Under the pieces are notes generated by a model. It saw nothing but the letters and a program-made list of their open reading frames with translations, was not told the origin of the DNA and made no database searches. The translations under genes were made by a program, and so were the position numbers. From contig NC_009486.1 in NCBI RefSeq assembly GCF_000016785.1, positions 248,001 to 312,000 of the forward strand: a stretch of DNA of 64,000 nt, written 5' to 3'. Positions 10,852 to 39,628 of the stretch are shown one piece after another. Each line of letters opens with the position of its first letter. Positions within the stretch are counted from its first letter, which is position 1. This DNA comes from Thermotoga petrophila RKU-1. GTDB taxonomy: Bacteria; Thermotogota; Thermotogae; Thermotogales; Thermotogaceae.

Positions 10852-11013
10852 TCACTCAACCGGTTCAAAATCCTCCTTCGAAGCTCCACAGAGCGGACAG
10901 ACCCAGTCGTCTGGAAGATCCTCGAAGGGTGTCCCCGGTTCGATTCCGCTGTCGGGATCTCCTTGTTCAGGATCGTAGATGTAACCACAGAGTTTGCACC
11001 TGTACTTCTTCAC
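10852..11013 (-). CDS. Rubredoxin
   Basis: 53 residues from GTG 11013 with GAGGTGA seven bases upstream; a longer frame exists but would overlap the upstream gene and lacks a site. The four cysteines binding the single iron are in KCxxCGYIYDP (CKLCGY) and WVCPLCG. A small cytosolic electron carrier. As the last gene of the rubrerythrin-superoxide reductase-rubredoxin operon it delivers electrons to both partner enzymes for removal of superoxide and peroxide in an anaerobe. Confidence 0.97.
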
Positions 11014-37370: not shown

Positions 37371-37781
37371 TTGAAAGGTGGTATTGATCTGGAGAGAAGC
37401 AAAGACTGGTTGGATGCGGCAAAAGATGATCTGGAGCATGCAAAACACGATTTGGAGCACGGCTTCTACAACTGGGCATGCTTTTCTTCCCAGCAGGCAG
37501 CAGAAAAAGCCGTGAAAGCTGTGTTCCAGAGAATGGGTGCACAGGCATGGGGATATTCTGTACCGGATTTTCTCGGGGAACTCTCCAGCCGTTTTGAAAT
37601 CCCTGAAGAACTCATGGATTTCGCCCTTGAACTGGACAAAGCCTATATCCCCACCAGGTACCCGGATGCCCTTCCTTCCGGATCTCCCAGAAACAGGTAC
37701 TCCAGAATTGAAGCCGAAAGGCTGGTGGACTATGTCAAAAAGATTGTCAGGTTCTGCGAAGATCTTCTATCCAGAATATGA
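37371..37781 (+). CDS. HEPN-domain protein
   Basis: Up to 136 residues; the start is uncertain (TTG 37371 or a codon just after the AAAGGTGG site at 37374-37381). A four-helix HEPN core is clear: SKDWLDAAKDDLEHAKHDLE, then FYNWACFSSQQAAEKAVKAV, and TRYPDALPSG. The R-x4-6-H ribonuclease motif of toxin HEPNs is missing, so it is more like the substrate-binding or antitoxin-like class; the T. maritima counterpart (TM0613, recalled) has a solved structure. Paired with the MNT gene overlapping its end by about 50 bases. Confidence 0.85.
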   Translation: MKGGIDLERSKDWLDAAKDDLEHAKHDLEHGFYNWACFSSQQAAEKAVKAVFQRMGAQAWGYSVPDFLGELSSRFEIPEELMDFALELDKAYIPTRYPDALPSGSPRNRYSRIEAERLVDYVKKIVRFCEDLLSRI

Positions 37782-38082
37782 TCGGGAAAAGGTCCTGGAG
37801 ATAATCAGAAACTCCCTCCCACAGCTTTTGAAGGTACTTCCTGTAAAGCTTGTTGTGCTTTTTGGCTCTTATGCAAAGGGGAATTTCACCGCCTTCAGCG
37901 ATGTCGATCTTCTTGTCGTGTACGAAGACCCGTTCAGAGAAGACGCTTATAAAATCGTGAAAAGGACCATCAAATTGAAAGGACTGGAACCGCACGTCTA
38001 CTCTCTGAGTGAATACAAACAGATGGAAAAGACCATCTCGAAGATGATCGAGGGTGGAGTGGTTGTTTATAAAGCGTTATAG
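37732..38082 (+). CDS. Minimal nucleotidyltransferase (MNT) of a HEPN/MNT pair
   Basis: 116 residues if translation begins at ATG 37732, inside the HEPN gene; TTG 37744 is the other option. The pol-beta core has LVVLFGSYAKGNFTAFSDVDLLVVYE, the complete GS-x10-DxD signature for metal and nucleotide binding. In known pairs the MNT adds AMP to the HEPN partner and silences it. Since the HEPN here lacks its nuclease motif, the pair may have another role. It ends 6 bases before the first TCGACA array. Confidence 0.85.
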   Translation: MSKRLSGSAKIFYPEYDREKVLEIIRNSLPQLLKVLPVKLVVLFGSYAKGNFTAFSDVDLLVVYEDPFREDAYKIVKRTIKLKGLEPHVYSLSEYKQMEKTISKMIEGGVVVYKAL

Positions 38083-38087
38083 AAATC

Positions 38088-38140
38088 TCGACAACCTCGA
38101 CAAACTCGACAGACATCGAACGGGATCGACAAACCGTCAG
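38088..38140 (+). repeat. TCGACA array A at the 3' end of the AAA+ ATPase gene
   Basis: Four TCGACA units at 38088, 38097, 38106 and 38126 (steps 9, 9, 20). The stretch 38097-38115 (TCGACAAACTCGACAGACA) is identical to 39366-39384 in array B. It overlaps the stop codon of the ATPase gene. Confidence 0.85.
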
Positions 38141-39294
38141 ATCTCCATGTAACTGAACTTTCCAGAGATCCTGTAGCCTTCCTTTTCAACAAGGAGTATC
38201 CGCTTTTGAAGGAGTTGATCCATGACTGAGTACGCCGTTGTTCGCTTGAAGCCCTCTTTCTGAAGTGTTTCTATGATCTTTTCTCTGGAGTAGACAGAAC
38301 CTCTCAGGACTCGAATGGCCTTTTTCTGGTTTTCTGTCAGGTTCAGAGTCAGCCCGGTGTACTCTGATATCGTCCTGTTGATCGTGTTGATCAGATCCTC
38401 TTTACTCAACAGTTCCTTGTGAATGTTGTCGTAGATCGCCTTTGTCAATATCCACAGGCCGTCTCTTGGGTTTCCATCGGAAAAACCGGCCACTATATCG
38501 AGCACTCCGTCTTCGATGAGTTCAATGTAAGATCCAAGCCTTTTGATGATCAACTCTTTGATCTCAAGTTTCTTCAGAGTCTCAACAAAAACGATGTCCG
38601 TGAATATGTTTTCCAGATTTCCTGCTTCGTTCCATCTCAGTCTGTCGGCAGCGTATTCGCGGTATATCGAAAAGGGAAGAGAAAGTATAACGACAAAATC
38701 CTCCATGATGATGAAGTTCTTTATCGAATCTATCACCCTGAGAACGTCTTCCTTCTTCTCCTTGTCCAGTTCGTCTATGATCAGAAGGAATTTTCCCTTT
38801 CTCTGAACCGTCTGTTTTATCAGTTCTCCGAGTTTTTCTCTGGCTTCGAAGAAGTTGAACCTCGGTCTGATCGATTTCTCGTGTGTCAGGCTGGCGTTCA
38901 CACCAAAGGAAACACCAAGGGAAAAGCCCTTTATGGTTGAAACTTCATCCGTTATCCACTTTCTAACCTCTTTTGCAAGATCCGACACTCCCTCCACCTT
39001 CTCCAGGGAAAGCGCCAGACTGTGCAAAAGATCGTAGAGTATGCTCTCCATGGAGTCTCTGAGCGAGATGTTCACCCTGACCGTGAATACTCCTTCCGGG
39101 TTCACGAAGTTGAGTACCGTCGTTTTTCCAATGCCCGTCTCTCCAGAAACACCAACAATCCCAAAAGGTTGATGAAGTGCTATTGAGTTCAGATAGTTTA
39201 TCTCCCTGGCCCTGTTCACCAGGTACTCTGATTCGCCTTCTCTGAGCGGTCTGTCCACCAGAACACTCAAAAGATCGGCCACCGTTTGCTTCAC
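38137..39294 (-). CDS. AAA+ ATPase with C-terminal winged helix (Orc1/Cdc6-like layout)
   Basis: 385 residues from GTG 39294 (GGGGTGA site). Walker A is VSGETGIGKTTVLNF, Walker B KFLLIIDELDKEK; the segment FSDGNPRDGLWIL is a sensor-2-like region (G-N-PR), as in Cdc6/Orc and STAND ATPases. The last 75 residues read as a winged helix (SREKIIETLQKEGFKRTTAYSVMDQLLQKRIL). No membrane segment. The gene is bracketed by two TCGACA arrays with identical spacing, one over its promoter, suggesting the protein binds them and controls itself or marks this locus. Function is unknown. Confidence 0.8.
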   Translation of the reverse strand: MKQTVADLLSVLVDRPLREGESEYLVNRAREINYLNSIALHQPFGIVGVSGETGIGKTTVLNFVNPEGVFTVRVNISLRDSMESILYDLLHSLALSLEKVEGVSDLAKEVRKWITDEVSTIKGFSLGVSFGVNASLTHEKSIRPRFNFFEAREKLGELIKQTVQRKGKFLLIIDELDKEKKEDVLRVIDSIKNFIIMEDFVVILSLPFSIYREYAADRLRWNEAGNLENIFTDIVFVETLKKLEIKELIIKRLGSYIELIEDGVLDIVAGFSDGNPRDGLWILTKAIYDNIHKELLSKEDLINTINRTISEYTGLTLNLTENQKKAIRVLRGSVYSREKIIETLQKEGFKRTTAYSVMDQLLQKRILLVEKEGYRISGKFSYMEI

Positions 39295-39329
39295 AAAATC
39301 ACCCCTGTATTATTTTCTGTTTTGTTTAG

Positions 39330-39335
39330 ATTATA
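39330..39335 (-). promoter_or_regulatory. -10 box of the AAA+ ATPase gene
   Basis: TATAAT on the minus strand (AGTATAATC), 36 bases before the GTG start. Array B begins 22 bases upstream and covers the -35 position, so a bound protein would block the promoter. Confidence 0.6.
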
Positions 39336-39356
39336 CTACAAATTCCTGTTACCGTC

Positions 39357-39408
39357 TCGACACCGTCGACAAACTCGACAGACACCGGACAGGTTCGACA
39401 GACTTCAG
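39357..39408 (+). repeat. TCGACA array B upstream of the AAA+ ATPase gene
   Basis: Four TCGACA units at 39357, 39366, 39375 and 39395 (steps 9, 9, 20), the same spacing and orientation as array A, 1269 bases apart. It shares a 19-base identical core with array A. Confidence 0.85.
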
Positions 39409-39450
39409 AAAAACACTTTCGATGAACGGACTGGTTTCAACTTGTAGGTA

Positions 39451-39508
39451 TTTATCGAATGTAATCGATAAATTCGTACGAGTTTATCGAATGTGTTCGA
39501 TAAATTCG
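39451..39508. repeat. Two palindromic 26-bp iterons
   Basis: Copies at 39451-39476 and 39483-39508 repeat with a 32-bp period, about three helical turns. Each holds the palindrome TTATCGA-N6-TCGATAA and differs from the other only in the middle (TAA or TGT). The remaining bases 39509-39628 hold a 30-codon open fragment ending in WLFLALVEAD with no start codon, perhaps a remnant. Confidence 0.8.
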
Positions 39509-39628
39509 AACGGTTTGGTATAGTTGAAGGGAAATTCTCATCACCCAGGATACCATCTTCAAAGACGAAGGTGTTGTAGGAATTCCCGCATGGCTGTTTC
39601 TGGCCCTGGTGGAGGCTGATTGAGATTT

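Follow-up and report, generated by a model that had tools for sequence, protein, structure and literature searches.

Why is a single AAA+ ATPase gene of Thermotoga petrophila RKU-1 enclosed by two arrays of the same short word? A preliminary description of this locus proposed that the arrays form a multi-unit protein binding site at both ends of the gene, which would permit DNA looping or autorepression, or that they mark the boundaries of a mobile unit. Here we report a computational comparison of the locus, which lies in a stretch of 64,000 nucleotides (the window, to which coordinates refer unless a locus is named), with its homologs in a sample of 103 Thermotogota genomes, one genome per species (genomes and loci carry G and L numbers).

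Anatomy of the array-gene-array unit

The unit extends over 38086..39403 on the reverse strand and comprises, in about 1.3 kb, an array, a promoter, the AAA+ ATPase gene and a second array, with the two arrays in direct orientation. Word search, direct-repeat comparison and array profiles place the five words of the upstream (U) array at 39355..39403 (-), and the downstream (D) array, at 38086..38134 (-), has the same orientation and unit spacing. Together the two blocks constitute one direct repeat of 49 nt with 86% identity, offset by 1269 nt (the repeat period of the whole unit), and homology to the loci of G076 and G004 begins at 38084/38085. All eight TCGACA words reported previously (at 38088, 38097, 38106 and 38126, and at 39357, 39366, 39375 and 39395) match the sequence, and the identical 19-base core claimed for both arrays is present. 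The word positions behind the earlier count of four words with 9-9-20 spacing hold, but not the count itself: each array is built of five units at intervals of about 9-10 nt, the 20-base gap being filled by a degenerate word (TGTCCG on the gene strand), and reads TGTCGA-n-TGTCcg-n-TGTCGA-n-TGTCGA-n-TGTCGA on the gene strand with units at ~0/10/20/29/38. Local alignment of the flanks of the ATPase gene gives scores of 35-36 against a shuffle maximum of 13-15, and these shuffles, together with conservation in 33 loci, rule out a chance repeat. Moreover, the three-word pattern TCGACAnnnTCGACAnnnTCGACA has no third occurrence across the 1.82-Mb genome, the reversed-pattern control giving 0.

A perfect TATAAT -10 box (39330..39335 (-), 6/6 match) lies 19 nt past the end of the U array, which thus covers or abuts the -35 region, as had been claimed. 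The other array does not overlap the stop codon as had been thought, since the D array starts 4 nt past the ATPase stop and 3 nt from the stop of an MNT nucleotidyltransferase gene (38080-38082), which is convergent with the ATPase gene and abuts the array. The D array lies between two convergent genes and is neither coding nor promoter. The nucleotidyltransferase (PF01909) forms a pair with a HEPN protein (PF05168) at 37371..38082 (+), identified by profile matches and situated in the flank outside the unit; by eye, an OsmC-like gene in G004 and a GIY-YIG-like gene in G076 stand next to the array instead of HEPN-MNT.

On its other side the U array is adjoined, outside the unit, by a second repeat region of TTTATCGAATGT..TTCGATAAATTCG dyads (ATCGA; 39439..39512, without strand), recognized by sequence comparison; in related genomes, where an ATPase gene of AAA_14/DUF4143 type runs divergently, it lies in the promoter region of that gene. 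That DUF4143-type gene is full length in L048, L049 and L050 and is deleted here save for its C-terminal coding end, a remnant at 39533..39604 (+) that matches L048 from 6141 downwards and L052 at 10933-11004. In G004 (L052 8267-9741), the ATCGA repeat region is present twice, and its second copy lies beside a third, degenerate TCGACA array; the two composite repeats enclose an antitoxin-like/PIN-like gene pair, an arrangement that is a local duplication or a cassette addition.

The ATPase and its fold

An open reading frame, profile matches and a fold model identify the gene at 38137..39294 (-) as encoding an AAA+ ATPase of 385 aa, with a GTG start and a TGA stop at 38137-38139. The protein has a Walker A motif (GETGIGKTT), a Walker B-like motif (LLIIDELDKE), a conserved DGNPRD motif and a C-terminal winged helix with the recognition helix KRTTAYSVMDQLLQK. 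In profile searches the AAA+ core matches PF13401 and KAP_NTPase above cut-off and AAA_16 below it, and the PF01637 (archaeal ATPase) score of 24.2 bits is less than the Pfam curated cut-off of 33.2. The AF2 model (pLDDT 80) places a winged helix at the C-terminus, in agreement with the preliminary description. For the Orc1/Cdc6 likeness that was proposed alongside it the picture is mixed: ORC/Cdc6 and RuvB are the top Foldseek matches by E-value, but the ORC/Cdc6 matches have TM ~0.45 with high rmsd, and the best full-length matches are the archaeal ATPases 2qen/2fna (TM 0.53-0.58). The window protein has no match to TIGR02928 (orc1/cdc6), and two homologs score 15.8-16.9 bits against a cut-off of 181.3, so that by sequence score the ATPase would not be counted as an Orc1/Cdc6 family member. 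A sequence search of the PDB gave no convincing relative, and the PADLOC models of anti-phage defence gave no match to the window protein. There is no transposase, recombinase or nuclease in the unit, profile matches being to AAA/KAP-type ATPases only.

Conservation across the Thermotogota

Homologs of the ATPase occur in 35 of the 103 genomes. For each full-length homolog we compared the DNA before the start with that after the stop and then scanned it with array profiles. U and D arrays, both in the orientation of the gene, flank 33 of the 38 full-length Thermotogota homologs, although these loci are related by descent and the counts are not independent events. Homologs that lack one or both arrays, which the preliminary description regarded as telling against its reading, are therefore a minority (5/38), with L056, L081 and L085 having only a weak U array and L069 and L084 having no array. 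The D array begins 1-18 nt past the stop codon in 32 of the 33 paired loci, the exception being L066, in which it overlaps the called 3' end, and a TATAAT box (at least 5/6) follows the U array by 4-24 nt in nearly all homologs. Because an array stands at the -35 position in nearly every homolog, autorepression by the ATPase at the U array is a plausible prediction. Inverted alignments of the flanks are at shuffle level for most loci, and the ends are direct repeats in 33/33. Array models built without reference to the gene, from sequence only, gave matches down to E 1e-15.

We considered several simpler accounts of the arrays. Neighbouring DUF4143 and ATPase_2 genes, taken as a control, lack such array pairs, the flagged cases being dispersed REP-like repeats, and this rules out array pairs as a general property of island AAA ATPases. 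The D array can likewise be ruled out as the operator of the next gene, because the strand of that gene is mixed across loci and because TATAAT (at least 5/6) after D arrays is only mildly enriched (14/33 versus 25% in shuffles). A decayed copy of the promoter is seen at the D array only in L053, L066 and L068 and is rejected as a general explanation. Some copies are damaged. In G072 the ATPase gene is split between codons ~68 and ~69 into pieces that lie 54 kb apart on opposite strands, each with its own array (L059 4354-4632 and L060 6798-7822), which suggests an inversion with a breakpoint inside the gene, and broken ATPase copies in G094 and G054 keep one or both arrays (L088 6319-7498 and L089 6415-7711).

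Array words, recognition helices and selection

Two types of array word are found, TGTCGA/TGTCGG and TGTCACA, and the word type corresponds to the type of recognition helix (for example KRTTAYS or PRSTAYS versus KRQT[AV]YTYI) in all 33 paired loci. Six genomes (G007, G052, G056, G076, G077 and G091) carry one gene of each type, each with arrays of its own type, and we regard this pairing as the strongest indirect evidence that the ATPase may read the arrays. Conserved words, fixed spacing and the match of word to protein thus strongly support the earlier proposal of a putative multi-unit protein binding site at both ends. Among the five Thermotoga loci and the G076 copy, 0 of 24 word sites vary in U and 2 of 24 in D, compared with 6 of 23 non-word sites in U and 12 of 23 in D (combined Fisher p = 3e-5), a pattern indicative of purifying selection on the words in both arrays. 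The D array is thus constrained, even though it is neither coding nor promoter. The likeness between U and D within a locus is 85% at freely varying columns, whereas between loci the arrays reach 33-37% where the proteins are 30-50% identical and 49-55% where they are 50-65% identical. This greater likeness within a locus than between loci implies that U and D either have a recent common origin or have been homogenised.

These observations bear on the most conservative reading of the locus, namely that an ordinary chromosomal DNA-binding ATPase loops between a promoter operator and a 3' operator and is not an element at all, with solo arrays and patchy distribution arising from recombinational gene loss and ordinary gene transfer. 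In its favour, almost every locus places the array at -35 ahead of a perfect -10 box, and the words of both arrays are under selection, though D lies between convergent genes. Vertical inheritance in Thermotoga is also consistent with it; the locus in the window's genus looks vertically inherited, with a HEPN-MNT flank common to G000-G003. Regulation only, however, leaves unexplained why U and D are almost identical in most loci, and since the next gene on the D side lies on either strand, D is not simply an operator of the neighbour. Given these points and the comparisons described below, we consider an exclusively regulatory role unlikely, while taking it seriously.

Occupied sites, empty sites and transfer

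Occupied and empty alleles of the same site are present in close relatives at two sites. At the first, G084 has left flank, U array, gene, D array and right flank, while G082 has left flank, one array and right flank; past the array, on the right, the two genomes are 95% identical over 6 kb. In G082 the solo array has exactly the sequence of D in G084 and not that of U. Because of this identity, what separates these genomes is precisely the U array plus the gene, and the switch falls within the first word or ahead of it. At the second site, G055 and G058 have a single array where G052 and G054 carry D-gene-U, and the flanks match to the array edges, the left flank gene of the G055/G058 site in G054 and the right flank in G052. 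Neither clean empty site has a target-site duplication, flank, array and flank being joined without extra bases. The absence of the unit from the same site in relatives, for which a search had been proposed, is thus found at two sites, with a single array left and exact junctions. In the window's own genus, G005 and G006 lack the gene, and too little flank is common to show an empty site. The window copy, which looks old and has drifted arrays, may be inactive.

Further footprints are seen in genus g27. In the solo arrays of G042 and G043, the outer flank on the left is that of U and the one on the right is that of D, as would be expected of an exchange between U and D, and the solo array of G041 retains the last codons of the ATPase gene. 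About 50 nt of outer flank are common on both sides of solos at several sites of this genus. Clean array-free target sites were not found in genus g27, where flanks are built of dispersed repeats; in L071, L153 and L154 very many dispersed REP-like repeats form the outer flanks of units and solos. Regulation only does not explain why, at several places within one genome, solos have the outer flanks that occupied copies have. With regard to gain versus loss, identical solos would arise if a rare insertion were followed by plain recombination between the direct repeats.

The array edges are also where homology ends. L066 and L067, which lie in different contexts, share a 96% identical block that starts 20 nt ahead of U and stops 1 nt past D, and L074 and L075, again in different contexts, share a 97% identical block ending 11 nt and 35 nt beyond the arrays. 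Blocks common to loci in different contexts (95-97% identity) therefore end at the array edges or at most 35 nt from them. In addition, a 96% identical protein is present in a genome of another family, and the window unit is 90% identical to a unit in G076, a genome of another family, the gene-3' homology edge of that comparison being the array edge (38085). A purely regulatory role leaves both the array-edge breakpoints at such identity in different contexts and the transfer between families unexplained. Array-edge breakpoints, occupied and empty sites and horizontal transfer together support the suggestion that the arrays are boundaries of a mobile unit.

A mobile unit might have originated as a mini-replicon, that is, a small circle having an iteron-like array as origin and the ATPase as initiator, which integrated by crossover with a resident array to give direct repeats. 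An initiator beside its own repeats is the classical layout, ORC/Cdc6 proteins head the Foldseek matches by E-value, and array plus gene is the exact unit that differs at the empty site. This origin is nevertheless very improbable in our judgement: homologs are absent from 72,556 plasmids and from 50,697 phage records, a pattern search of IMG/VR viral contigs likewise gave no homolog, and the ORC/Cdc6 matches (TM ~0.45, high rmsd) are surpassed over the full length by 2qen/2fna (TM 0.53-0.58). These searches of plasmids, phage records and IMG/VR contigs also led us to reject a known plasmid, phage or viral element.

Solo arrays and other cargo

The array models recover 108 arrays at E up to ~1e-5, many of them solo arrays without an ATPase remnant. 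The preliminary description held that TCGACA arrays scattered without the gene would speak against its proposal; none are scattered in this genome, but solos exist in other genomes, where they fit an excision scar or an empty target. One such array lies inside an apparent type III CRISPR (Cmr/Csx-like) locus, at the matching place in G076 and G077 (L157 18382-18415 and L159 5323-5368; gene identities by eye).

Pairs of arrays in direct orientation also bracket other genes, in general defence-like ATPases, toxin-antitoxin genes and glycan genes. In G080 an array pair encloses an ATPase_2/DUF234 gene and an AAA_14/DUF4143 gene at a site where G081 and G084 have the ATPase unit and G082 has a single array. 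The array pair of G055/G058 brackets a segment with radical-SAM, MFS and ParE-type toxin genes. Array-bracketed cargo elsewhere comprises an IrrE-type peptidase, DUF4276 and AbiEii/OLD-like ATPases in G042, an AbiEii/OLD-like ATPase with a DUF3226 protein in G095, and the ATPase together with glycosyltransferase-like genes in G083. Neighbouring array pairs that are not spaced as U and D are direct in 16 of 16 cases (p = 3e-5), although neighbours may share descent and island polarity. Regulation only does not account for other cargo between direct arrays. In G084 (L160 2085-5960), an istAB-like pair (IS21-type, by eye) replaces the left part of the array-bracketed two-ATPase segment, which is intact in G080 and otherwise 99.4% identical to that of G084.

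The abundance of solos raises the question of whether the arrays with their short flanks are themselves a mobile or repeated sequence, moved by something else, with the ATPase gene a passenger that exploits them. Intact solos are indeed common, occurring also in genomes without a matching ATPase (G009, G082 and G099), and the ~50 nt of common outer flank in genus g27 would be expected of such a sequence. We find this hardly credible, since the array word follows the recognition helix of the ATPase in every locus and since window-type arrays in Thermotoga genomes are confined to the ATPase locus, except for the one degenerate copy in G004.

Proposed mechanism and significance

On balance, we conclude with modest confidence that these loci probably form a phylum-wide family of one-gene units, in which the ATPase would bind its own end arrays and repress itself and which would be gained and lost by exchange at arrays. 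We infer DNA binding, repression, bridging and the chemistry of exchange alike from comparative evidence. Most likely, the ATPase forms a directional oligomer along an array of its own type, where five words follow one another every ~9-10 nt. At the U array this oligomer would block the promoter, resulting in autorepression, and through U and D together it would bridge the ends of the unit or mark them. Exchange at arrays could then add or remove array plus gene, with a single array being left behind or used, and arrays would act as recurrent breakpoints at which other island genes join in direct orientation. Because the unit encodes no recombinase or transposase, we propose that strands are exchanged by host recombination or by an enzyme acting in trans; host recombination between the 47-nt repeats would suffice for loss. 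More tentatively, and as a possibility that we rate somewhat below even, the units may represent a new class of mobile unit without its own recombinase, in which the ATPase drives or licenses array exchange and the arrays are directional docking points for defence and glycan genes.

If true, these would be among the smallest autonomous-looking mobile units, with an Orc-like ATPase in place of a transposase, and they would provide a concrete handle on gene gain and loss in Thermotogota islands. Even on the conservative reading, the loci define an undescribed AAA+ family of putative DNA-binding proteins, together with the site that these would bind, paired operators and a division into two specificity classes. 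For binding and specificity-swap work, the genomes themselves offer cognate and non-cognate arrays as controls.

Comparison with known systems

No known element family fits the unit, and searches of the open-access literature gave no description of this array-gene-array layout. Insertion sequences and DDE transposons differ from it in that the unit has no transposase, no terminal inverted repeats and no target-site duplication. Elements of the LTR or solo-repeat type resemble it in having direct terminal repeats that are alike within a copy and in giving solos after recombination, but the unit lacks reverse transcriptase and integrase, and the clean sites examined show no target duplication. 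Archaeal Orc1/Cdc6 genes at ORB origins and iteron plasmids also place an AAA+ winged-helix protein beside repeats, a likeness of layout only, whereas the sequence matches are marginal, no origin or plasmid is known for the unit, and its arrays lie on both sides of one gene. In the pB171 partition locus the repeated centromeres parC1 and parC2 flank an ATPase gene set. Direct-repeat arrays on both sides are again a similarity of layout only; the present unit is chromosomal, has one gene, lacks a ParB/ParR partner and belongs to another ATPase class. The archaeal ATPases SSO1545/PABY2304 (PDB 2fna, 2qen) are the best full-length fold match, as noted above, with a weak PF01637 match, but that match is below the curated cut-off and neighbouring PF01637-type genes are without such arrays.

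Integron cassettes (attC) are comparable in that gene plus one site makes up the difference between occupied and empty alleles and in that cargo stacks in one orientation. The unit differs in having neither an integrase nor attC-type inverted repeats, and in carrying an array in the gene's promoter as well as past the stop. The pdif (dif) modules of Acinetobacter plasmids consist of genes, often toxin-antitoxin pairs, between short sites that undergo site shuffling, with no recombinase in the module; each site measures 28 bp and has XerC/XerD half-sites, and the two sites around a module are inversely oriented (PMC13141974). Like these modules, the present units hold genes between short sites and need no recombinase inside the module. 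Unlike pdif sites, those described here consist of five direct words and always lie in direct orientation; their consensus shows no apparent dyad symmetry, and the protein that probably binds them is encoded within the unit.
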